Source: Nocardia sp. (GTDB lineage: Bacteria > Actinomycetota > Actinomycetes > Mycobacteriales > Mycobacteriaceae). From it: a stretch of 64,000 nucleotides of DNA. Location: assembly GCA_014360565.1 (NCBI GenBank), contig JACIXH010000003.1, positions 1 through 64,000 on the forward strand, written 5' to 3'. Below, piece after piece: positions 5,722 through 23,900 of this stretch (within the stretch, counting starts at the first letter, position 1; every line of letters starts with the position of its first letter). The notes under the pieces are model-generated. The model had not been told where the DNA came from. It saw only the letters and a program-made list of their open reading frames with translations, and searched no databases. The position numbers and the translations under genes were made by a program.

Positions 5722-6725
<1,004 letters not shown>

Positions 6726-6733
6726 GTCCACTC

Positions 6734-7225
6734 CTACTGGGTGATTCGGGCGTCATCGAGCGGGCGGGTGATCGCCCATGTCTGGTGGAATGCGCACGAG
6801 GCGATCTTCCAGGTGCCCTCTTCCACGCGGTATTCGTCGGCGTACTCGCCGGTCGCGACGGTTTCGGTCTGCTCGATCAGGTTGACCTGGCGAAAGCGCA
6901 GCGTCCACCGGCCACTCGCCGTGCCGTCCTCGCGCACGGTGATGTCGGGGTGTACGCCGTGATGCATGTCGAGGATCGCGTTCTTGCCGTCCACCTGTTG
7001 CAGCGCGATCGAGGAGAAGACCGCGGCCATACCGTCGGCGTCGGTCGCGCCGAGACTGCCGTAGTCCAGCGCCGAGCCGACCGCGACGAAGCAGTCGCGG
7101 AAGCCGACCGGGTCTTTGGCGTCGCAAGCGCGGAAGTAGCGGTGTTTGAGCGCGGTGATCGACTCGATCGCGGCCGACCGGGCGAGCTGTCTTGCCAGGT
7201 CGTCGGGTTGTGCTGTTGCGGGCAT
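6734..7225 (-). CDS. NTF2-like (SnoaL-like) fold protein
   Basis: 163-residue protein of the cone-shaped NTF2-like fold. It shows the typical entry helix AIESITALKHRYFRACDAKDPVGFRDCFV, a histidine pair in MHHGVHPDI, then strands ending with WKIASCAFHQTWAI. Relatives include scytalone dehydratase-, ketosteroid isomerase- and SnoaL-like enzymes as well as non-enzymatic binders. Its pairing with an SDR suggests a dehydratase/isomerase role in a catabolic pathway (inference). ATG 7225 is preceded by AAGGGAG 5 bases away. It is first in the operon running left. A TGTGC-N5-GCACA palindrome about 215 bases upstream suggests control by the PucR-type regulator next door. Confidence 0.8.
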   Translation of the reverse strand: MPATAQPDDLARQLARSAAIESITALKHRYFRACDAKDPVGFRDCFVAVGSALDYGSLGATDADGMAAVFSSIALQQVDGKNAILDMHHGVHPDITVREDGTASGRWTLRFRQVNLIEQTETVATGEYADEYRVEEGTWKIASCAFHQTWAITRPLDDARITQ

Positions 7226-7439
7226 GGAGCTCCCTTGGTCGAGTCGGCAGAACGGTCGGCGAGAACACCGCGACGTCGATGCGGCACTGGTCTCGCAGCC
7301 GACACCGTACGACCGTGACTGTGTCGTTCTTCGCCTGTGCTCCCGCTCATCGGGAACGCCGATCCGGCTGCGTGACACGGCATACGGCGATTGCGGACCG
7401 GCACCCCGTCATCGGGAGGGGTCGCCGTTCACCACCAGC

Positions 7440-7454
7440 TGTGCGAATCGCACA
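7440..7454. promoter_or_regulatory. Palindrome TGTGCGA-A-TCGCACA, candidate PucR-type operator
   Basis: Perfect 15-base palindrome about 215 bases upstream of the NTF2-like/SDR operon and 13 bases beyond the stop of the PucR-type gene. Its TGTGC-N5-GCACA form is repeated at 8733-8747 in the PucR/NRPS divergent promoter. A shared dyad flanking the regulator gene on both sides suggests one regulator controls both units. Confidence 0.6.
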
Positions 7455-7466
7455 AACCGCCCGGAC

Positions 7467-8693
7467 TCAGATTGTCCGAGTCAGGACGTGACGGTTCCAG
7501 CGGCAGACGCCCAGCGCGAAGCGCAGTCGGAAGGTGTCGGTGTCGACGGCGATGCCGTAACGGCCGGTGACCTGCTGGATGCGGTACTGGACGGTGTTGC
7601 GGTGGACGTCGAGGACGCGGGCGGTGCGCGAGAAGCTGGCGCCTTCGGCGAGAAAGACGTCGAGGGTGTTGCGCAGGAGCTCGGCCTTGGCGCCGTCGCT
7701 TGCCAGCGGGCCGAGAACCCGGTGGACGAGCCCGGCGAGTTCGACGGGATCGTCGGACAGCAGCGCGAACGGTGCGACCGTGTCGTAGTCGAGGACGGTG
7801 GGTGCGGTCTCCCCCGCCGAGATGGCCAGCGCTTTGGCGCGGGCCGCGCTGCGGGCCGTGCGCCGGAACCCGGGCAGTCCGTCGGCGACCGGGCCCAGGG
7901 CGACCCGCACCGGCAAGCCGGCGGCCGTGAGCTGGGCGGTGAGTTCCTCGGGCGGGCACGGTTGCTGGTCGGGGAACCACAGGCACATGGCCCGGTCCCC
8001 CGACGCCGCCACCAGCTCGGTGCCGCCGGTTCGCATCGCCGTGGACAGCAGCTGGCGGGCCTGCTCGAGCGCGCGCACAGCGTCGGTGCCGGTGACCGTC
8101 GTCCATACTTCGGCCGCGTGGTGGCGCCGGTCGAGCCGGTAGTCGAGCACCTCTTCGGCCGCCGCGACGTCGACGTCGTCGCTGTCGAGCAGCCGCGCGA
8201 TCCACTGCTGGCGCGCCGCTTGGCGGCTGCTGAGCCAGCGGTCCCGCTCCGCCTCGTAGATCCGTCCCATCGACGAGTTGAGCCGGTCCAGGTAGGCCCC
8301 GGCGAAGGTGAGCAGCTCGGCGATCCTGGCGGGCTGGTCGGGGCCGGGAACGGCCAGGGTGAGTCCGATCGCCGCGTCGAGGACCCGGTACTGCCCCAGC
8401 CCGTAGGCGCGCAGCAGGATCGTCAGCGGCACACCGCGCCTGGCCAGCCGTTGCGCGTAGGCGGCCGCGCCTGCGGGCGGGCTCACGGTGGCGGGGTCGA
8501 TGTTGTTGGCCAGCACGTACTGCACGGCGGCGATGTTTTCGGCGATGCTGGCCGCTCGCATCTCGGCCAGGTCGGCGGCGACGTCGTTGAGCGGAATCAT
8601 CTGCTCGGTGACCCGGATGAGGTCTTCGGTGATGGCGTCGACGTGCGGGGCGAGGGCTTGCCCCACCCAGACCAGGGATCCGTATGCCGCCAC
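7467..8693 (-). CDS. PucR/CdaR-type helix-turn-helix transcriptional regulator
   Basis: 408-residue regulator. The N-terminal half is helical and typical of actinobacterial PucR-like proteins (RMGRIYEAERDRWL-type core), and the middle is a GGDEF-like remnant region. The C-terminal HTH_30 domain is clear: LRNTLDVFLAEGASFSRTARVLDVHRNTVQYRI. It starts at GTG 8693, divergent from the NRPS. The family usually responds to a small metabolite and controls an adjacent pathway. Two TGTGC-N5-GCACA palindromes flank the gene, one in the NRPS-side promoter and one toward the NTF2-like operon, so autoregulation and control of both neighbours are likely (inference). Confidence 0.85.
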   Translation of the reverse strand: MAAYGSLVWVGQALAPHVDAITEDLIRVTEQMIPLNDVAADLAEMRAASIAENIAAVQYVLANNIDPATVSPPAGAAAYAQRLARRGVPLTILLRAYGLGQYRVLDAAIGLTLAVPGPDQPARIAELLTFAGAYLDRLNSSMGRIYEAERDRWLSSRQAARQQWIARLLDSDDVDVAAAEEVLDYRLDRRHHAAEVWTTVTGTDAVRALEQARQLLSTAMRTGGTELVAASGDRAMCLWFPDQQPCPPEELTAQLTAAGLPVRVALGPVADGLPGFRRTARSAARAKALAISAGETAPTVLDYDTVAPFALLSDDPVELAGLVHRVLGPLASDGAKAELLRNTLDVFLAEGASFSRTARVLDVHRNTVQYRIQQVTGRYGIAVDTDTFRLRFALGVCRWNRHVLTRTI

Positions 8694-8731
8694 TGCTGCG
8701 TCCGTCCGTTGAACAAAAACCGTCGACGGTA

Positions 8732-8748
8732 TTGTGCCAGCAGCACAA
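8732..8748. promoter_or_regulatory. Palindrome TTGTGC-N5-GCACAA in PucR/NRPS divergent promoter
   Basis: TTGTGC and GCACAA are exact complements separated by CAGCA. The site lies 39 bases upstream of the PucR-type start and about 210 bases before the NRPS start. It matches the dyad at 7440-7454 in arm sequence and spacing, so it is the likely binding site of the adjacent regulator. Confidence 0.6.
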
Positions 8749-8956
8749 ATTTCGGATCGATTCGGTCGTGACGCCGGTAAACAGACCGATCATGTCGTCG
8801 TGACAGCGTGACATGTGGTGTCATGGTCGCCGAACGCCCCGATATCGACTCCTTCTTGCTTGTTCGACACTGGTCCGCCCCGGTAGGCCGAATCCGACAG
8901 GGTTCGTGGGTCATCGCAGAGCTGTGGGCCGGACAGACGAAGGACGTCGTACTCGA

Positions 8957-11900
8957 ATGCGTGAAGCGCGCACCTCGCCCCGTGAAGCTCGTCGCTCGTC
9001 GCGCGGTCGAGGCAATCGCAAGTCGAGTACTCCCCTGTTCACCCAGCTGCTGACGGCGGCGGTCGACACGGCGGCCGATACCGTCGCCGTGTCCTGGTCC
9101 CCCGTCGACGGCGTGTGTCGCACGCTCACCTACACCCAGCTCGACGAGTACTCCTCTCGGCTGGCCAGGGAACTGCTCGCGCGCGGCATCGGTCCCGGCG
9201 ATGTCGTCGCGCTCGGCTTCACCCGTTCGATCGAATCGGTGGCGGCGGTGTGGGCCGTGGCGAAGACCGGCGCCGCCTACGTCCCGGTCGATCCGGCGTT
9301 GCCCGCCGAGCGGATCGCCTACCTGCTCGAGGATTCGGGCACGATCCTCGGACTCACCCGCACCGCACATCAAGACACCCTCGGCGGGTCCGTCGAGTGG
9401 CTCGATATCGACGCCGTACCCGTCCAGGAGCGCATCAGCGCCCGCCCCACCCACCCGATCTCCTACCTGGACCGTGTCCGGCCGCTGACCGACCAGCATC
9501 CGGCCTATGTCATCTACACCTCGGGCTCGACGGGTCGGCCCAAAGGTGTCGTCGTCACCCACACCGGTCTGGGAGCCCTGGTCGCGGCGGCCGGGCAGCG
9601 CTATTCGGTCGGCGCGGGCGACCGGGTCCTGCACGTGTGCTCGCCGAACTTCGACGTGTCCGTGCTCGAGCTGCTGCTGGCGTTCAATTCCGGGGCCACG
9701 CTGGTGATCGCGCCGCCGACGGCTTTCGGTGGCGACGAGCTCGCCGCGTTGCTGCGCCGCGAGCGGGTGACCCACCTGCTGATCACCCCGGCCGCGCTGG
9801 AATCGGTCGACGCGCACGACCTGGACGCGTTGCGGGTCGTGGTCGTGGCGGGCGACGCCTTCGGCCCAGCCCTCGTCGACCGATGGGCTGTGAACCGCGC
9901 GTTCTTCAACGGCTACGGCCCGACCGAGGCCACTGTCCTGGCTACCGGTACCTGCGCGATGGTGCCCGGTGAGCCCGTCACTATCGGCTCGGCGTTCGCC
10001 GGAGTCGGTGCGGCAGTGCTGGATTCGCGGTTACGCCCGGTCCCAGCCGGTGTAACGAGTGAGCTGTATCTGTCCGGTCCCGCGCTGGCCCAGGGTTATC
10101 AGGGCAGGCCCGCGCTCACCGCGGAACGTTTCGTCGCCGCGCCTTTCGCCGGCACCGGAGCCCGGATGTATCGGACCGGCGATCTGGTCCGCCGCACGCC
10201 CGACGGTGATTTCGAGTGCCTCGGGCGCTCCGATTTCCAGGTGAAGATCCGCGGTTTCCGCGTCGAGCTGGGCGAGATCGACGCCGCCCTGACCGCCCAC
10301 CCCGCCATCGAGTACGCGGTCACGCTCGGCGCGAAAGCCGAGTCGGGCGCGACGGTGCTGGTGTCCTATGTCCTGGCCCGGCCGGGCTTGTCGATCGATA
10401 CCGAGGAACTCGCCCAGTTCGTCGGCGCCACTCTTCCCGGTCACATGGTGCCGACCGTCGTGATGAGCATCGACGCGATTCCCCTGACCCCCAACGGCAA
10501 GCTCGATCGCGCCGCGCTGCCGAAACCGGTTTTCGGGGCCGCGGGTTCGCGAGCGCCCGAGGGGCCGGTCGAGACCGCGATCGCCGCACTGTTCGCCCAG
10601 ATCCTTGGGCTGGAGCAGATCGGCGCCGAGGATTCGTTCTTCGCCGCGGGCGGCGACAGCATCCTGTCCATCCAGCTCGTCTCGCGGGCACGCAATGCCG
10701 GCATCTCGTTCACCCCGCAGGCCGTCTTCGAGCACCGCACCGTTGCCGGTTTGGCGCGGGTGGCGGTGCTGGGCGCCGAGTCCACGCCCACCTTGCCCGA
10801 ACTTCCCGGCGGCGGCGTCGGTGCGATGCCGTTGACGCCGGTACTGGCGGCCTGGCTGGCCGGTGGACGCGTGTTCGACCGGTTCACCCAGCAGATGGTG
10901 CTCGCGCTGCCTGCCGGCATCGATCGAGATGCCCTGGTGAAAACCCTCACCGCGGTGATCGATCACCACGACATGCTGCGCGCAGGCCTGCGACAGGTCG
11001 ACGGACGGTGGGAGCTGCACGCGTTGGCGCCGGGCGGGGTGGACGTGCACGAGTTGCTCACCCGTGTCGATGTGCCTGCGGGCGCCGACCTCGGCGAAAT
11101 CGCCGAGGTCGCGATGGAATCGGTGCTCGCCGCGCTGGATCCGCGGGCGTACCGGATGATCGGCTTCGCGTGGCTCGTGCGCGAGGACGGTCCGGACGGG
11201 CTGGTCGTCGCGGCCAATCATGCGGCGATCGACGGCGTTTCGTGGCGAATCCTGTTGTCGGACCTGGTCGCCGCGTGGGCGCAGCTCGATCGAGATGTCG
11301 TCGTGTTGGCTCCGGTCGGCACGTCGTTTCGCCGATGGGCCTACGGTCTGACCGACGCGGCGGCGAGCAGGCGCGCGGAACTGACGCATTGGCGACACAC
11401 ACTGTCGGTGCCCGACCCGCTGCTCGGCGATCGCGGGCTAGGGCCCACCGATACCGCGTCCACGGTGCGAACCATCAGTGTCGAGGTGCCCGCCGACATC
11501 TCCGCGGCGGTCCTGACCGACCTGCCGACCAGGTACCGCGCGGGCGCCGAGGACGGTTTGCTCGCCGCCCTGGCCATGGCTGTGCGCCGGTGGCGGGGTC
11601 GTCGTGGTGTCGACGCTGCCGCGACGCGGGTGCGCTTGGAGGGCCACGGCCGCGAACAGTCCGTGCTCGACGGCGCCGATCTGACCCGCACGGTCGGCTG
11701 GTTCACCAGCATGTATCCGGTCGCGCTCGACCTGAGCGAGGTCGGCAACGACGCCGCCTGGCACAATGGCAGCGCCACGGCCGCCGCGGTCAAGGCGATC
11801 AAGGAACAGCTGCGCGCGGTGCCGCACAAGGGCATCGGTTTCGGCATGCTCCGCCACCTGGACCCGGAATCGGCGGCCGAGCTCGCCGGCCCGCTGGGCC

Positions 11901-14900
11901 AGGTCGGCTTCAACTATCTGGGCCGCGTCTCCGCAGGCGATGTCGCGCTCAGCCGCACCGACCACAGCTGGCTGCCCACCGCGGACTGGGGTGAGCCCGT
12001 CGCCGAGCAGGACCCGGACTTGCCCGCGGCCGCCGTCATCGACATCAACGCCCTGGCCACCAGCACCGACGCCGGTCTGCGACTGCGTGCGTCGTTCTCC
12101 TACGCCGCCGGAATCCTCGACGAGCACTCGGTACAGGAGCTGGCCGACGGCTGGACCGCAGCCCTGTCCGTCCTCGCCGACCACCTGCACGACCCGGCCG
12201 CGGGCGGTCTGTCCCCCGCCGATGTCGCACTGGTCCGGGTGAGCCAGGCAGAGCTCGACACCTGGCATCGCGAACGTCCACGCCTGACCGATGTGGTGCC
12301 GTTGGCGCCGTTGCAGCTCGGTTTGCTGTTCCTCGCCCAGGTCTCGCCGACCGATCCCTATCTGGTCCAGCTGGCCGTGGAACTGGCAGGTGAGGTCGAC
12401 AGCGACCGCCTGCGACGGGCGGCCCAGGCAGTCCTCGACCGACACGCGATTCTGCGCACCTGCTTCGGCTCGTCGGCGGCGGGCACACCGGTCGGCTTCG
12501 TGACCGAGGGTGTCTCGGTGCCGTGGCACATCGTCGAAACCGACAGCAGCGACGCCGACGAGTTCCTGGCCGCCGAAGCGGGGATCGCCTTCACACTCTC
12601 GGCGGCGCCGCTGCTGCGTTTCACGCTGTATCGCCGCGCCGAGGGTATGCACCTGGTCTTGACCGCACACCATCTGCTGGTCGACGGCTGGTCGATGCCG
12701 CTGCTCATGCGCGAACTGCTGCTGTGCTACGCCACCGACGGCGCCCCCGCAGCCCTTCCCCGTGTGCGCCCCTACCGCGACTATCTCGCCTGGCTCGCAG
12801 ATCAAGACCCGCGCGTTGCCTTGGTTCGGTGGCGCGAGGCGCTGTCCGGGACCACGCCGACCCTGCTGGCCGCCGCGGTCGGCCCGCCGGCGGTGAGCAC
12901 CTCGTCGCACGGGATGTGCACTGTCGAGCTGTCACCCGCCGAGGCCGAGCAACTGGCGACCTGCGCGGCTGCCGAGGACGTCACGGTCAACACGGTGTTC
13001 CAGGCAGCGTGGGCAGTGGTGCTGGCCGGCGCGATCGGCGGCAGCGATGTGGTGTTCGGTGCGGTGGTCTCGGGCCGCCCGCCGCTGCTGGACGGCGTCG
13101 ACAACATGGTCGGACTCTTCGCCAACACGATCCCCGTCCGCGTCCGCTACAACGATGCCGAACCACTGCGAAACATCCTGTCGCGGGTGCAGTCCGAACA
13201 GATCGCGCTGCTGGACGGCCACCACCTCGGCCTCGTCGAGATCCAGCGCGCAGCGGGCACCGGCGAGTTGTTCGACACGCTCATGGCCTACGAGTCCTAC
13301 CCGGTCGACACCGAGGGAATGCGGCGCGCGCACGGCGCGATCGACGGCCTCGAGATCGTCGACGTCCGAGCGGCCAACGCGACGCACTACCCGGTGGCGG
13401 TCGGCATCGAGGTCGGTGACGGAATCCGCATCGGCGTGCAGTACCGCCTCGACCTGATCGACAGCGCCATCGCCGCAGCGCTCGCGGACCGCCTGCGCGC
13501 CATCCTCGACGCCTTCGTCAGAACCCCGCAGCACACCCCCGCGCAGCTGCTGAAAACCCTGGACGAACGCAACGACCCGATCGCGGAAACGACCTACCGC
13601 CGGAGTGTCCTCGCGGACCTGCCCCGAGACCTGAACCTGCCGGCCGACCGCGCCCGCCCTACCACTGCGGTAGTGGCCGACGCTCGGGTCTGCTTCGAAA
13701 TCCCCGCCGATCTGCATCAGCGCATGCGTCACTTCGCCGAGTCCCGCGACACGACGGTGTTCAGCCTCGTGCACACGGCCTTCGCAATGCTGCTCGCCCG
13801 GCTGTCCAACACCGGCGACATCGCGATCGACACTCCCTGCCCGCAGGCCACGCAGACCCACCTGGTCTTACGCCTGCCGGTGCGCGGTGCCACCACGGTC
13901 GATGAACTGCTGGCCGAGGCGAGCACGGTGGCCCGCCGGGCATTCGCGCGAACCGGGTGGTCCAGCACCGACATCACCTCCGCACCGGACCCCCTCGGAC
14001 GAACCGCGAGGCCCGCAGCGGATGGGCAGCGATCGCCGGACCACGATGCAGGGCAACCGCCGCGCCGGAATCCGCCCGCGCGCGAGGAACAACCGCTCGT
14101 GCGTTTCAGGTTGCGCTACAGCGAGCACGACATCCCGGAATCGACGCCCGCCTCCTGCGCGGTGGCGCCGTGCGATCTCGTCCTGTCACTGCGTGCGCCG
14201 ATCACGTCGTCCCGCAGCGACGACCACGCACCACGACAGCAAGCCCACCGCCCTGTCAGGCAGCCCACGGCCGGAGCGGACAGCCGGATCACGCCGAGGC
14301 CGGCGTCCGCAGTCGCTGTCGGCGATCTCCCGACCCTCGACACCGCCGATCCTGTCGCTGCCGAATTCGCCTACGCCAGTGCCCTGTTCGACAAGGACAC
14401 CGTCGAGGTGTTCGCGCAACGCCTAGTTCGCCTGCTGACCGAAGCCATCGCGCACCCCGGTACCCCCGTCGGTGACCTCGCCCTGCTCAGCACCGCCGAA
14501 CTGGCGACGCTGCTCACGCGCGAGGACGCGCCTGCCACCTCCGCTGCCGTGTTGCCCGACCTGCTGGCACGCGGCAGCGCGCTCGGTCACGACCGAATCG
14601 CTGTCCGGCACGCAGGCATCTCGATCACCTACGGCGAGTTGACCGAACGCACCGCCCGCTGGGCCCGCGAACTGATCGACCGCGGCGTCGGCCCCGAAAT
14701 CGTAGTCGCCGTTGCTCTTCCGCGTTCGGCCGACATGATCGCCGCCGCACTCGCCGTCGCCGCGGCGGGCGGGGTGTATGTGCCGATGGACCCGGGCAAT
14801 CCGATCCAGCGTCTCCACCACCTGGTCGCGGACTCGGGTGCACAGCTCGGTATCTGCGCGCGGGTCGAGGATCTGCCCGACTCCCTGAACCGGTTGACCC

Positions 14901-17900
14901 TCGAGCACCTCGACCGATCCAGCGCCACACACTCCACGTCCCCGATCAGCGATGCGGACCGCCTCGCGCCCGTGCGAGTCGATCACCCCGCCTACATCAT
15001 CTACACCTCCGGCTCCACCGGCCTGCCCAAGGGCGTCACCGTGACCCACGCCGGCCTGTCCCCGTTGGTCGCCGAAGCCGTGCGCCGCTACCGCCTCGGG
15101 CCCGAGCACCGCTTCCTGCACATCTGCGCGCCCTGGTTCGACCCTTCGGTCCTGGAGTGGCTGTGCGCCTTCACGACCGGAGCGACGCTGGTCGTCGCAC
15201 CGTCCGACATCGCCGGTGGCGTCGAACTCACGGATCTGCTGGCCGCCGAGTCCGTCACCCACGCCATCATCACCCCCGCGGTCCTGGGCACCCTGGACCC
15301 CACCGAGCTGGGCGCACTGGAATCGTTGTCTGTCGGCGGTGACGTGAGCACCGAGCAGCTGCTCGCCAGGTGGCAGCCCGGTCGCCGTTACCTCAACGGT
15401 TACGGCCCCACCGAGACCACGATCATCTCCACCTATGCCGAACTCGCTGCCGGAGAAGCCATCTCGATCGGGCGCCCGGTGCAGGGCACCCACGCGATGA
15501 TCCTGGACGCCCGGTTGAACCCGGTACCGCCGGGTGTCACCGGCGAGCTCTATCTCAGCGGTCGCGCGCTGGCCCGCGGCTACCGTAACCAGCCGGGCAC
15601 GACCTCGGCACGCTTCGTCCCGGATCCGTGGGGTGCGCCCGGCACCCGCATGTACCGCACGGGCGATCTCGTGCGCCGCCGCGCCACCGGCGACCTCGAT
15701 TACCGCGCTCGCGCGGACACCCAGCTGAAAGTGCGTGGTTTCCGGATCGAGCCCGGCGAAATCGATGCGGTACTCGTGAGCCACCCCGATGTCGCGTTCG
15801 CGGTGACCGTGGGGCGCCGGAACCGATCGGGCGCGACAATCCTGGTGTCCTATGTCCTTGCAACACAGGGGCATTCGGCCGATCCGCAGGCGCTCGTCGA
15901 GTACGCCACCGACCGGTTGGCCGCGCATGCGGTGCCCTCGGCGATCGTGGTCCTCGACCAGCTGCCGCTGACCTCCAACGGTAAACTCGACCGCGACGCG
16001 CTGCCCGAACCGGTCGCCGTGACAACACCGGCCGCCGTGCCGACCGGGACGACGCAAACTCTGCTGGCCGAGCTGTTCGCCCGCGTGCTCGGTGTCGCGG
16101 AGGTCGGGGCCCACGATTCGTTCTTCGCCCTCGGCGGCGACAGCATCCTGTCGATCCAGCTGGTGTCGGTGGCCCGTGCCGCGGGCATCGTCTTCAGCAC
16201 CCGCGACGTGTTCGAACACCGCACCGTGGCGAAGCTGTCCGCCATCGCCGCACTCGACAGCACGGACGCGATCGTCTTGGCGGAACTGCCCGGCGGCGGC
16301 ATCGGCGAGGTCGCTCTGACCCCGGTACTGGCCGACTTCCTGACCACCGGCCCCAGCGACCGTTTCGCCCAAACCATGGTCCTGGCACTGCCCGAGGACA
16401 TCGACCGTCCAGGTCTGGTCGCGGCCATCGCGGCCATCGTGGGCCACCACGACATGCTGCGCTCGCGCCTGCGACGAGAAGGCGACGATTGGCGGTTCGA
16501 AGTCCTGGCGCCCCACGCCATCGATGTGGATGCGCTGATCACCGAGATCGCCGTGCCCGGTGAGGTCGGTGCAACGAGCTCACCGGATGACCTCACCGGA
16601 ATCGGCAGCGCCGCCATGGATTCGGCACTGTCGGCGCTGGACCCCGCCGCCGCCCGCATGATCGCGTTCACCTGGATCCGCAGGCACGGCGCTCACGATG
16701 TCCTCGCGGTCGCCGCCCACCACTACGTCATCGACGGCGTCTCCTGGCGAATTCTGCTGCCCGACCTCGTTATCGCCTGGTCGCAGCGGCAGGCGGGCGC
16801 CCCGATCGTGCTGCCGCCGGTGGCGACCTCGTTCCGCCGGTGGGCACACGGCCTCACGATCCTCGACCGCACCGCCGAAATCGATCACTGGCACCAGGTC
16901 CTGTCCACCCCCGACCCCTTGCTGGGCGATCGCGCCGTCGACAGTGGCCTCGACACCGAGGCGACGATGCGGTCGATCACGGTCCAGATCCCGGCCGAGA
17001 TCACCGATCCCCTGCTCACAACATTGCCCGCGCAGTACCGTGCGGGCGCCGACCACCCCCTGCTCGCCGCGCTGGCCTTGGCCGTGCGCGTCTGGCGTGC
17101 CCGCCGCGGCATCGACTCGCCCACCCTGCGGCTGCGGCTCGAGGGCCACGGACGCCAGGAAGACGCCGTCCCCGGTGCCGATCTGACCCGCACCGTCGGC
17201 TGGTTCACCACTGTCTACCCGGTCGCCCTCGACCTGTCCGCCATCACACCCGCGATCTTCGACGACGCGGCGCTCGCGGCGACCATGCGCACCATCAAGG
17301 AACAACTGCTGGCCGTGCCCGACAACGGCATCGGTTTCGGACTGTTGCGCCGCGACCCGCGTACCCGAAACCTGTTGTCCGGCAACCTCGGACAGATCGG
17401 CTTCAACTATCTGGGCCGTGCCACCACCGCCGCGCAACCCACCGGCGACACCGCGTGGCTGCCCACCGCCGATCTCGGCGACATCGACGTCGACTACGAC
17501 CCCACCCTGCCCGCGCACACCGTTCTCGACATCAACGCCATCGCCGTCACCACCGATTCCGGTCCGTGCCTGCAAGCGAACTTCCGCTACGCCACCGCCA
17601 TCCTGACCGAGTCCGATGTCGCCGAACTGGCCGAGGACTGGACGAACTGGCTCACCGCGCTGGCCGAGCACACCCGCCACCCGTGCGCCGGCGGGCTGAC
17701 CCCCTCCGACGTGGCGCTGGTGCAGGTCTCGCAAACCGACCTGAACACCTGGCGAGACACCCATCCGGGTCTGTCGGATGTGCTGCCGCTCTCGCCGTTG
17801 CAGCAGTCGTTGCTCGCACTGGGCGAGATGCTCGACGAGTCGGTCCACGCCTACGTCATCCAGCTCATGGCCGAACTGAGCGGTCAACTCGACACCGACC

Positions 17901-20900
17901 GGCTGCGCCAGGCGGCCGCGACCGTGCTGGCCCGCCACGCCAACCTGCGTTCGGCCTTCGTCACCACACCCGACGGCACCGCGGTCCAGCTCGTCGCCGA
18001 CGCCGTCGAAGCACCGGTACGGATCGTCGAAACCACCGACGCCGCACTGCCCGCGCTGCTGGCCGGCGACCAGCGAGCAGGCTTCGACCCCACCAGCGCG
18101 CCGCTGCTGCGCTTCACCGTGTACACCACCGGCACCGCACGCAGCCACCTCGTGCTGACCGGCCATCACATCCTGCTCGACGGCTGGTCGATGCCACTGC
18201 TGATGAAGGAACTGCTGGTCCTCTACGCCACCCACGGCGACGCGAGCCCGCTGGCGCCGGTGCGCCCCTACCGCGACTACCTCGAGTGGTTGACCCGCCA
18301 GGACCGCACCGCCGCCGAACGCGCGTGGTCGCAGGTCCTGGCCGGGGTACAGACGAGCCCGCTGGCCCCCGAACTGACCTGGCCGCCCGCGACCGGCACC
18401 GGTTACGGCCTGTGCGAGTTCGAACTCGACGCCGCGCGCACCGCGGTGCTGACCGCCTTCGCCGCGGCCACCGAGGTCACCGCGAACACTGTCTTCCAGA
18501 CGGCGTGGGGACTGGTCGTCGCCGCGAGCACCGCCCGCGACGATGTCGTGTTCGGCGCCACCGTGTCCGGGCGACCACCCCAGCTCGACGGCGTCGGCGA
18601 CATGATCGGGCTGTTCGTGGACGCGGTCCCGGTCCGCGTGCGCATCCGCCCCGCCGACACCATCGGTGAGCTGATCCGCGCCGTTCAGGCCGAGCAGGCC
18701 CGTCTGCTCGATCATCACCACCTCGGCCTCGGCGCGATTCAGCGCGTCGCGGGCCAGGGCGAGCTGTTCGACACCATGCTCGCTTTCGAGTCCTACCCCG
18801 TCGACGTCGAAGGTCTGCAGCGCGCGGGCGGCGCGCTCGACGGTCTGAGCATCGACGACCTGCACGGCGCCGACCACACCCACTACCCGATCACGGTCCT
18901 GATCTTCCTCGGCGCCCGCACCCGGGTACAGATCAAGTACCGGCGTGACCTCGTCGCCGACCCCGTCGCGCAGGCGATCACCGACCGGCTCCGCACCGCG
19001 ATCGACACGGTGATCGCGACGCCGAACACTTCCGCGACGACGATCGCCGAACAACTGGCCACCGACCCGACCGACCCGATCACTCGATCCCGGTTCTGGC
19101 GCCGAACCCTGGCCGACCTGCCCGCCCCCGCGATTCTGCCCACCGACCACCCCCGCGTCGAGCGCACGCCCGCACTCCACGATCGAGCCGGCGCACAGCG
19201 ACGTCCGGCCGACCACGGCGATCCACAGCACAGCACCCGCGTAGTGCTGCCCGCGCCGGTACACCACGATCTTCGCCGACTCGCCGAACTCGCGAACGTG
19301 AGCCGTCGATCGCTGCTCCGCACAGCCTTGGCCGTCCTTCTCGCCCGGCTCACCGACTCCCACGACATCGTGATCAGAACCTGCGATCCCGATCTGTTGC
19401 TCCGCACCGCGATCGACCCCGCGGCGCCGTTCTCGGATCTGCTCGCACAGGCCGATGATGCCGGGCGCCAGGCGCTGGCCCATGCGGGAATCCCGTTCAC
19501 GGACCTCCCCGGTCTGCTGGGTGTCGAGCCCCGGTCCCTGGCACAGGTGTGTCTGCGGTTCCGGTCCGCTGACGCCGCGACGGGCGAATTCGCCGTTCCG
19601 TCAGCGATGTTGGACGCCTCGCGGCCCGACGGTGTCCGCACCCCGGCGGCGAACGGGCACCGTCACCTGCCCACAGATGACCTCGAGACAGCCGGTGAGC
19701 TCACCGTGGCGGTACTCGAGGACGAGTCGAGCACGACGATCGAGCTGTCCTTCCCCCGAACCGTTGTCGATGACCACGAAGCCGCCACCTTCGTCCGGCG
19801 TCTGGTCCGGCTGCTCACCGCGATCGCCGCCGCACCGCGGACACCGGTCGGCGATCTTCCCCTGTTCGATCACGCCGAGTACGTCTTGCTGACCCACCTC
19901 GGCGACGGCACGAACCCCACCACCACGGCCACCCTGCCCGAGCTCCTCGTCCGCGGCACCGGCTACGGCCAGCACCGGATCGCGGTGCGCGACAACGCGC
20001 ACAGCTACACCTACGGCACGCTGGACGCGGAATCCTCACGGCTGGCCCGAGTGCTCGTCGCCGAGGGAATCGGCCCGGAAACCGTCGTCGCCTCGGCCAT
20101 CCCGCGCTCCTATGCGTCGATCCTGGCCTTCTGGGCCGTCGCCAAAGCAGGCGGGGTGTACCTGCCGGTCGACCCGAACTACCCCGCCGACCGGGTGCGC
20201 CACATGCTCGACGATTCCGCCGCGACCATCGGGCTCACCGTCGCCGCGGCGAACGGACTGCCCGAATCCGTGCGCTGGCTGATCCTCGATGAGCCGACCG
20301 TCCGGGCACGCATCGCCGCCTGTTCGTCGACCCCGGTGCGCGACCGCGACCGGCGAGCGCCGCTGCGCCGCGACAACCTCGCCTACCTGATCTACACCTC
20401 CGGCTCCACGGGTGTGCCCAAGGGTGTTTCGGTCACCAATGCGGGCCTGGGCGCCCTCGTCGCCCACTCCGCCGCGCTGATGCGCCTGCGCCACGATCAC
20501 CGGATGCTGCACGTCTGCTCGCCCAGCTTCGACCAGTCGATCGAGGAGCTCAGCACCGCGTTCCACCACGGTGCGACACTGGTCATCGCACCACCGGAGA
20601 CCCTCGGCGGCGCCGACCTCGACGACCTGCTGCGCACCGAACAGGTCACGCACACGATCATCACTCCCGCCCTGCTGAGCACCCTGGATCCGGCAGCGGT
20701 GCCCGAGCTGCAGTGTGTCTCGGCCGGCGGCGAAGCCACCACCGCCGAACTGCTGGCCACCTGGCAGCCCGGGCGCAGCTTCCTCAACGGGTACGGTCCC
20801 ACCGAGACCACCATCGGCGCGACCTATTCGGCGTTGCGTGCCGGTGACCGGGTCACGATCGGCCGGCCCGTACCGGGCATGCGCGCCGTCGTCCTCGACG

Positions 20901-23900
20901 CCCGGCTGCACCCGGTGCCGGTGGGCGTCACCGGTGAGCTCTACCTGGCCGGTCCCGCGCTCGCTCGCGGCTACCGCGGGCGCAGCGCCGCCACGGCGGA
21001 TCGTTTCGTGGCCTGCCCCTGGGCCGGACCCGGCGCACGGATGTATCGCACCGGCGACCTCGTCCGCTGGGTGCACGCGGACACCTACGAGCTGGAGTAC
21101 CTGGGCCGCACCGACTTCCAGATCAAGGTCCGCGGCTTCCGGATCGAACCCGGCGAGATCGACGCCGTCCTCGCGCGCCACCCGCAGGTGAGTTCGGCAC
21201 TCACCGTCGGCGCCGAGAACCCCGCCGGTGACACGGTGCTCGTCACGTATGTGACCGGCCGCGATATCGATCCCGGCGCCATCGCACGGTGGTCGTCGTC
21301 GATGCTGCCCGCACACATGGTCCCGGCGGCCGTCGTGGTCCTGGACCGGATCCCGCTGTCCGCCGCCGGCAAGATCGACCGAAGTGCCCTTCCCGCACCA
21401 AAATTCGCGACCCGTACCTACCGCGAACCCGGGACCGCCATGGAACGAACAGTCGCCGAGGTTTTCGCCGAGGTACTCGGTGCCGACCGTGTCGGCGCCG
21501 ACGACAACTTCTTCGACCTGGGCGGCAACTCGCTGCTCGCCACCCGCCTGACCGCCCGGCTCGGCGCCGCGCTCGACATCCGCGTACCCGTGCGCGTGCT
21601 GTTCGCCGCGCCGACAGTCGCCGAATGCGCCCACGAACTCGCCGGATCGACCCGTGCGGCAGCTCGCCCCGCCTTAGGCCCCTGCCCGCGCCCGGAACGC
21701 ATTCCCCTCTCACCCGCGCAGCAGCGCATGTGGTTCCTCAACCGCTTCGACACCGGCACCGCCGCCTACAACATCCCAGTGGTGCTCCGCCTGACCGGCG
21801 CGCTCGACACCACCGCGATGCGACAGGCGTTCACCGATCTCGTCGCGCGCCACGAGATCCTGCGCACGGTCTACCCGGCGGTCGAGCACGCACCGGCACA
21901 GATCGTCCTGCCGATCGACCATCCGGACGTCCCACTGCTCGCGGTCACCACGATCATCGATGGCCAGGACCCAACTGCCGATGCCCGAACCGGCGCCGGC
22001 CCAGGGGGCGGTGCGCACGAGCGTGCTCGCGTCAGCGACACCATGACAACCGCAGTGACAGAACTGGTCTCGACGGTCTTCGATGTCACCGCCGAGGTCC
22101 CGCTGCGCGCCACCCTGTTCGAACTGGGCCCCGACGACTACGTCCTGGCCATGGCGGTCCACCACATCGCCGGCGACGGCTTCTCCGGCGGGCCCCTCAC
22201 CCGCGACCTCGTCACCGCCTACACCGCCCGCGCACACGGACAACACCCCGCCTGGGCGCCCTTGCCCGTCCAGTACGCCGACTACGCGATCTGGCAGCAA
22301 ACCCTGCTCGGCGACGAATCCGACCCCACCTCGATGTCGGCCACCCAGCTCGGGTACTGGCAACAGGTACTCGTGGACCTGCCCGACCAGCTCGAACTAC
22401 CCCGCGACCGACCCCGTCCCGCCATCCAGTCCTATGCCGGCGGCCGGGTGCCCTTCACCGTCGACACCGCCACCCACGCGGCCCTCGCCGAACTCGCACG
22501 CACCCACGGCGCGACCCTGTTCATGGCCGTGCACACCGCCTTGGCGGTGGTCCTCGCCGAATTGTCGGGCACCACCGACATCGCCGTCGGTACCCCGGTG
22601 GCGGGCCGCGGCGACGCCGTCCTCGACGACCTCATCGGCATGTTCGTCAACACGCTGGTCTTCCGTACCCGAGTCGACCCGGGCATGAGTTTCGCCGAAC
22701 AGCTGACCCGCCAACGCGATACCGACCTGGCCGCATTCGCCCACGCCGACATCCCGTTCGAACGGCTCGTGGAAGTGCTCAACCCGGCCCGCTCCACCGC
22801 GCGTCACCCGCTGTTCCAGGTCGGCCTGTCGTTCCAGAACCTGGCCGAGGTGCGCATGGACCTGACCGGCATGACGGTGTCCTCGATCGAGCTCGACCGT
22901 GCGCTGTCCCAGTTCGACCTGCACCTGATCCTGGCCGACCGCTACACCGCCGACGGTTCCCCCGCCGGCATCACCGGCTACTGCACCTACGCCACCGACC
23001 TGTTCGACGCCGCCACCGTAGCGGGATTCCTGGCTCGGCTCACCCGTCTGATCGCCGCGGTGGTCGCCGACCCCGGCGCGCCACTGCACACCATCGACCT
23101 GCTCGCCCCCGCCGAACGAACCCAGATCCTCGCAACCTGGAATCGGACTGCGCGACACACCGATCCGAACACCACCCTCGTGTCCCTGCTCGACTCCACC
23201 GTGGCCCGTGCCCCCGATGCCGTAGCCCTCATCGCCGACGACATCGGTGTGACCTACGCCGAGCTCGACGCCCGGGTCAACCGCCTGGCCCGCTACCTCA
23301 TCACCGAAGGCGTCGGCCCCGAAACCCGGGTGGCACTGGCGATGCGGCGATCGATCGACCTGGTGGTCGCGATGTACGCGGTCAGCACCGCGGGCGGCGC
23401 GTACGTCCCGGTCGATCCCGATCAACCGCGAGCACGCACCGAATACATCCTGACGACAGCGGACCCCCTGCTCGTCCTCGCCGATGCCGGCACCTGGCTC
23501 GATGCGGCCGAGCACACGAGCACGACGAGCCCCACCGGCGCCAGTCCACAGGGCGCCGAACACAGGAGAGCACCCCGCTCGACCGAGGACCGCTACGACA
23601 GCACCACACCGATCGACGCCCCGGTCCGGTGTCTCGACCACCTGGACCTGTCGGCGCACAGCCCCGCACCGATCACCGACCGCGACCGCCGCGCGCCGTT
23701 GCGCCCAGCCGATACCGCCTACGTGATCTTCACGTCGGGATCGACCGGTCGCCCGAAGGGGGTGGCTGTTTCACACGCGGCGATCGTCAACCAGTTGCGC
23801 TGGAAGGCCGCCGAATTCGGTCTCACCGCGCAGGACGTCGTCCTTTTGAAGACTGCCGCGACCTTCGACCTGTCGGTCTGGGAGTTCTGGTCGGCGCCAC

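Follow-up and report, generated by a model that had tools for sequence, protein, structure and literature searches.

A MabR-like regulator of the PucR family and a conserved NRPS partner are most likely linked by a pair of operators in the window, the whole 64,000-nucleotide stretch of Nocardia DNA analysed here. The two dyads which flank the regulator gene are real and conserved. As judged from sequence comparison, both are very probably operators of the regulator itself, through which it would control its own gene and activate the NRPS; the dyad in front of the gene is referred to as site 1 and the one behind it, a putative second and inherited operator, as site 2. The switch as such appears fairly ordinary. 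The features of the locus are collected in Table 1.

Table 1 Coordinates of the regulator, its putative operators and the neighbouring genes in the window
Feature	Coordinates	Strand	Description or basis
Site 1, putative operator dyad	8733..8749	(-)	minus strand TTTGTGC-TGCTG-GCACA
Site 2, putative operator dyad	7440..7456	(-)	minus strand TTTGTGC-GATTC-GCACA
PucR/MabR-type regulator	7467..8693	(-)	408 aa; predicted non-heme-globin-like N-terminal part, GGDEF-like domain, HTH_30
Divergent regulator/NRPS intergenic region	8694..8956	.	more conserved blocks besides site 1 (14-orthologue alignment)
NRPS, four adenylation domains and terminal thioesterase	8957..25801	(+)	Pfam on five overlapping or adjoining pieces
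NTF2/SnoaL-like gene	6734..7225	(-)	PF13577
Short-chain dehydrogenase (SDR)	5722..6486	(-)	PF13561

The stretches 7440-7454 (TGTGCGAATCGCACA) and 8733-8747 (TGTGCCAGCAGCACA) are the sole exact matches to TGTGC-N5-GCACA within the window, exactly where the sequence-only reading had placed the same 15-base dyad on each side of the regulator gene (7440 and 8733). Site 1 begins 56 bp before the GTG start of the regulator, in the divergent regulator/NRPS promoter region, and a gap of 10 bp separates the regulator stop codon from site 2. The bare motif occurs at 10 distinct places in the 6.39-Mb genome (10.1 expected from a first-order model; 4 places for a control pattern), and the Poisson probability of two such places within 1.7 kb is about 4e-6 for a pre-chosen stretch. 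Read on the regulator strand, TTTGTGC-N5-GCACA is a better motif than the bare 10-base form. It has exactly two matches in the genome, sites 1 and 2, with 0.40 expected and none for its control. The corresponding Poisson value for two long motifs within 1.7 kb, 5.5e-9, serves as a guide only, both the stretch and the extension having been picked after the sites were seen. The earlier proposal presupposed a motif that is not abundant genome-wide; this holds for the long form (two matches here and 0-5 per genome in 118 Nocardia genomes) and not for the bare form, which is at chance level.

Relatives of the regulator came from nine loci in genome contigs and from the 118 Nocardia genomes, 16 of which matched at 1e-60 or better; four of the latter matches duplicate records among the nine loci. 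The orthologue set (n = 14, at least 65% identity) includes the window and two N. neocaledoniensis strains and excludes L017 (53%), G042 (48%) and five homologues at 36-39%. Site 1 is kept upstream of the regulator gene in 14/14 orthologues, as the sequence-only reading anticipated, and always starts 56-59 bp before the regulator start. Over its 12 positions it is exact in 11 orthologues and has one mismatch in the other three, and the invariant columns of the alignment number 10/12 in the arms, 2/40 in the left flank and 9/38 in the right flank. Site 2 follows the regulator stop in all 13 loci that contain the 3′ end of the gene (L019 is cut off), 12 times exactly and once with one mismatch, at a distance of 10 bp in 11 loci, 19 bp in G094 and 52 bp in G037. 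Its spacer bases vary across the orthologues and its arms hardly do; the distance between the two sites ranges from 1293 to 1344 bp. The dyads are judged real because they are kept in the orthologues, which we consider the decisive evidence.

Beyond the orthologue set, the 53% relative (L017) is without an exact dyad and has one with a mismatch. No good spacer-5 dyad was found within 300 bp on either side of the G042 homologue; a perfect TTTGTGC-N6-GCACAAA is located about 0.8 kb before its start (L116 1501-1518; G042:C1:6851247), so the spacer is not strictly fixed, and this dyad may represent either an exception to the spacer rule discussed below or a divergent operator. The same genome has four long-motif places spread over 113 kb on both sides of the 48% homologue, none of them at that gene. 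A dyad with one mismatch was also noticed within the NRPS coding region in four loci. In the window, a half-site-like sequence, GGTTTTTGTTCAAC, is present on the minus strand at 8708-8721, near the regulator start, its TTTGT lying 32 bp from that of site 1. It is largely kept among the orthologues, reading TTTGTGCAAG in N. neocaledoniensis, and may be a third, single half-site.

The regulator has the domain composition reported for MabR of M. tuberculosis, the globin part being assigned by predicted fold. Pfam detected the C-terminal PucR HTH (HTH_30, PF13556) at 50.3 bits against a cut-off of 27 and the GGDEF-like domain (GGDEF_2, PF17853) at 46.4 bits against 24.5. Among solved structures, the sequence nearest to the regulator is that of the MabR C-terminal fragment, 9f80 (phmmer, E 1.5e-9), which is also the best Foldseek match (E 6.3e-7) of the predicted model (mean pLDDT 90); residues 156-397 match its fold with Z 11.5 and rmsd 9.8 over 230. 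Residues 6-151 of the predicted structure match the folds of 3pmc (Z 14.9, rmsd 2.5, 132 aligned) and of RsbR, 2bnl (Z 10.9, rmsd 3.3, 134 aligned). N-MabR, reported in the available text of PMC11617747 to have a non-heme globin sensor fold, was not among the best 50 fold matches of this N-terminal part. These data are good, if not final, evidence for a predicted N-terminal non-heme globin sensor, since helical folds readily give high Z. The best NCBIfam match is the Rv1453 family regulator (NF050824, residues 56-400), at 103 bits with a cut-off of 600, and the protein is therefore not a member of that equivalog.

MabR activates fas-II and recognizes TTTTGT(N)9ACAAAA, its binding being reportedly raised by acyl-CoAs longer than C18 (both from the available part of PMC5541348); an EMSA oligonucleotide from its footprinted region, as given in the accessible section of PMC11617747, contains TTTGT-N9-ACAAA. 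The core TTTGT-N9-ACA is present in both window sites, in 13/14 first sites of the orthologues (AG03 reads ACG in place of ACA) and in 13/13 second sites. Agreement with the full MabR consensus is partial, with 10/12 positions for site 1 and 8/12 for site 2 when compared by eye. The MabR orthologue in the genome of the window is L084 (phmmer 1.4e-90 and 3.9e-56 to Rv2242 fragments), which adjoins a fabD-like gene (PF00698) and has a perfect TTTTGT-N9-ACAAAA (12/12) 42 bp after its stop; this dyad was used as the internal control. The window regulator was rejected as MabR itself, the place beside fabD being held by L084 and the window gene adjoining the NRPS. In four Nocardia genomes (L049, L051, L056 and L204) the long dyad precedes a fabG1-like gene, behind which lies an inhA-like gene, both named from their N-terminal sequence with Pfam run on L049, and no PucR gene was found nearby. 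The position of these dyads fits a putative MabR-like control of the FAS-II reductase operon.

We infer that a dimer binds each dyad with one HTH per TTTGTGC half-site, the half-sites being offset by about one helical turn, as has been proposed for MabR. Since site 1 is located in the divergent promoter region, the regulator most likely controls its own gene from there and activates the NRPS. Activation would follow when the globin-like sensor part binds a small molecule, the counterpart for MabR being long-chain acyl-CoA. No sigma-70-type promoter was recognized by consensus at the locus; the regulator may have a -10 region that overlaps site 1, which would fit self-repression. The NRPS leader, outside site 1 (window 8790-8960), contains strongly conserved GTGACA/TGTCA repeats and a GAATCCGACAGGGTTCGTGGG stretch. 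Indels of 1-2 bases noticed by eye in these intergenic blocks suggest that their conservation is non-coding rather than coding, and the blocks are probably control elements of the NRPS.

The origin of site 2 is indicated by the five homologues of 36-39% identity (L031-L035). Each has a dyad 8-21 bp after the regulator stop, with 1-2 mismatches in ten to TTTGT-N9-ACAAA, which precedes a gene similar at its start to the phosphotriesterase-like gene of L058; nothing comparable was found within 300 bp upstream of these regulators. As L031-L035 and MabR share this 3′ layout, the 3′ site has the appearance of an inherited element, and site 1 that of an addition that goes with the divergent NRPS. Site 2 corresponds in its placement to the MabR operator, which lies between mabR and fabD, and to the phosphotriesterase-linked sites of the sister group. 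As an inherited second operator it may help a tetramer to bridge sites 1 and 2, and in some species it may act on whichever gene follows.

Bridging could even be the main task of site 2, which would then be an auxiliary operator: a tetramer held on both sites would loop out the regulator gene of about 1.3 kb and tune site 1. We hold this to be possible rather than probable. The presence of site 2 in 13/13 loci whatever the downstream gene, and still 52 bp after the stop in G037, agrees with such a role, as do the tetramers formed by MabR besides dimers (available text of PMC11617747) and the C. glutamicum GabR octamer, which needs two inverted repeats for strong binding according to the part of PMC7652997 at hand. 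The spread of 1293-1344 bp between the sites, however, leaves no fixed helical phase, the dimer is favoured as the DNA-bound form of MabR in the accessible section of PMC11617747, and the phosphotriesterase group shows only the 3′ site, so that two sites are not needed there.

The neighbourhood of the regulator bears on what site 2 controls. The NRPS, whose start at 8957 was chosen by us on the basis of codon-usage scoring and of the alignment of orthologues, is the divergent neighbour of the regulator in 14/14 orthologues; the 53% (L017) and 48% (G042) relatives do not adjoin it. Turnover on the other side is extensive. The NTF2-like gene stands beside the regulator in 3/13 loci (the window, L018 of N. 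alba and G113), and no orthologue of the window SDR was found in the other 12 loci, the SDRs near other orthologues being 30-41% identical. The first predicted gene beyond site 2 has the same direction as the regulator in 11/13 loci and is of many kinds, and in L015 and G037 it is convergent, with site 2 between the two genes; the convergent gene in L015 encodes a luciferase-like monooxygenase (Pfam-supported). Gene calls in these loci are from our codon-usage script, not from a standard gene finder, and are on the wrong strand in L055. That site 2 is kept despite changing and even convergent neighbours ties it to the regulator rather than to the NTF2-like and SDR genes. Between the latter two genes, the window contains a short predicted gene of 82 aa (6483-6731). 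G016 and G075 (L074, L075) contain another large NRPS-like gene some 1 kb downstream of the regulator and site 2; it shares about 47% identity with the first part of the window NRPS.

The sequence-only reading had taken the regulator, the NRPS and the NTF2-like/SDR operon for one small regulon. The comparison supports its first two members, which share site 1 and stay together in 14/14 orthologues, and speaks against the third (NTF2-like gene 3/13, SDR 1/13). The suggestion that the operon supplies or modifies a building block for the NRPS finds no support, as its genes are not conserved partners and the NRPS persists without them; the same neighbourhood comparison led us to reject them as conserved partners. 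It is accordingly unlikely that site 2 is primarily an operator of this operon. Such a role would agree with its position, in the same direction and some 215 bp ahead of the NTF2-like start, with the co-directional gene in 11/13 loci, and with the layout in MabR and in the phosphotriesterase group, where the site behind the regulator is indeed followed by the next gene. It is countered by downstream genes that vary by locus, by the retention of site 2 between convergent genes in L015 and G037, and by the NRPS remaining where the NTF2-like and SDR genes are absent. In the species of the window, in N. alba and in G113, site 2 could nevertheless act on the NTF2-like or SDR genes.

PucR-type regulators number 10 to 17 per genome in the two genomes in which they were counted. 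The long motif was matched in 77 rows, or 75 distinct places, across the 118 Nocardia genomes, versus 9 control rows (hand count). A PucR-type gene is found at 44 of the 75 places, and at 27/58 once the 17 orthologue-group places are set aside; for the other 31 it is absent from the 3-kb stretch examined. The figure of 44 consists of 16/30 and 16/33 loci with a protein match within 3 kb and of 12 orthologue-group places assigned by coordinate; seven loci covering part of these 12 were rescanned and all seven contain the regulator gene. An HTH-only adjacency scan gave 16 and 14 for the two locus sets. Of 30 picked genes, 26 went into the HTH profile; omitted were L094, L112 and L113, which fall below the family cut-off, and L111, which is over it and for which the script took the neighbouring gene. 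By our estimate, a random 3-kb stretch touches a PucR-type gene in about 1% of cases, given 17 genes that pass the cut-off in one genome of 7.0 Mb. The contexts of spacer-5 sites include an AMP-ligase/DUF3556 operon, a phosphotriesterase-like gene and a flavin monooxygenase (Pfam, one locus each).

Spacers of other length were treated in the same way. The spacer-6 pattern occurs in 20 loci, or 19 distinct places, one of which is near a PucR-type gene (the G042 homologue). The spacer-4 pattern is near a PucR-type gene in 11/30 loci, sampled as one locus per genome from 30 of the 54 genomes with a match. In total count the spacer-4 pattern roughly equals the spacer-5 pattern, and the spacer is thus singled out by adjacency to PucR genes rather than by abundance alone. 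In a tree of 53 sequences (midpoint root, some long branches, G042 homologue not included) the 16 spacer-5 regulators fall within one group of 24, which is open and has long branches (support 99/99), and the 11 spacer-4 regulators within one group of 12 (98/91); five members of the spacer-5 group have no convincing site. A fully symmetric 14-base pattern was found in 5/301 genomes of the family, with a PucR-type match at 4/6 loci by protein and at 1/6 by HTH profile.

At ten spacer-4 loci with TTTGTGC-N4-GCACA (L139, L145, L146, L147, L151, L152, L153, L156, L157 and L160) a separate PucR clade is divergent from an aldehyde-dehydrogenase-like gene (Pfam on L139 only), and a further spacer-4 locus, L141, has another partner gene. 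In four genomes (L066-L069) a second PucR paralogue is divergent from an operon of AMP-ligase, DUF3556 and Rossmann-oxidoreductase genes (Pfam, L066), with the same dyad between them. Among homologues of this second paralogue outside the genus (four read of five), no dyad with fewer than 2 mismatches in ten was found.

We tentatively suggest, at somewhat less than even confidence, that actinobacterial PucR-type regulators share one DNA code, a TTTGT(GC) half-site with a spacer largely set by clade. The clade-set spacer is the newest part of this suggestion, partly tested and with one known exception. If it is true, PucR-type regulons become readable from sequence, and the NRPS regulator is a case with two operators, the inherited one staying behind the gene while the downstream genes turn over.

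In a reading by cross-talk, sites 1 and 2 would be bound mainly by another PucR paralogue within a shared regulon. Other PucR-type genes of the genus do carry the same half-site and spacer. We nevertheless regard this as improbable: the genome of the window has the long motif only at the window regulator, and a search of this genome, which is 85% complete, gave no close homologue of the second paralogue at 1e-60.

Site 2 is still less likely to be an RNA hairpin, that is a terminator or stability element and not a protein site, for which its place 10 bp after the stop in 11/13 loci and its variable loop bases might speak. Its arms are identical to those of site 1 and vary very little, without compensating changes, and in G037 it lies 52 bp after the stop. 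No terminator-like site (GC-rich stem followed by a T run) was found in 7200-9000 and the fold is no better than that of shuffles (z -0.55), on which grounds the hairpin was rejected. That the dyads are chance inverted repeats, as the chance-level frequency of the bare TGTGC-N5-GCACA across the genome might suggest, is practically negligible and was dismissed because they are kept at set positions in 14 and 13 orthologues and because the sites are clustered.

The reading of both dyads as operators of the MabR-like regulator provides a candidate operator, together with a likely activator, for an NRPS that is conserved within a group of Nocardia species, and knowledge of this regulator could help to turn on that pathway. 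The reading also carries the MabR operator beyond a single lipid operon to a number of PucR-type regulators, and it corrects the notion that the neighbouring NTF2-like and SDR enzymes feed the NRPS.

Few regulators of the PucR family had been studied as of 2020 (available text of PMC7652997). Among the matches listed, no paper dealt with a PucR-type regulator paired with an NRPS, and a literature search with the motif letters gave nothing relevant among the matches listed. Srm22/SrmR of Streptomyces ambofaciens is likewise a PucR-type regulator of a natural-product megasynthase (a polyketide synthase gene), without an established binding site according to the portion of PMC7652997 at hand; it is likened here by description. 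GabR of C. glutamicum, as described in the same portion, resembles the window regulator in being divergent from its target, with inverted repeats in the shared intergenic region. It differs in having no GGDEF-like domain and in forming an octamer, and its two 21-bp repeats lie close together in one promoter, unlike the window sites. The closest parallel is MabR of M. tuberculosis (Rv2242), which has the globin-like, GGDEF-like and HTH_30 parts in common with the window regulator. The window dyads, TTTGT-(GC-N5-GC)-ACA, have the outer half-site and the nine-base distance of the MabR operator, and an operator directly behind the regulator gene is common to both systems, as seen for the Nocardia MabR orthologue. 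The inner GC...GC, in contrast, is nearly fixed in the dyads of the window regulator, which also has an extra putative operator before its own gene and an NRPS, not fas-II, as its partner.
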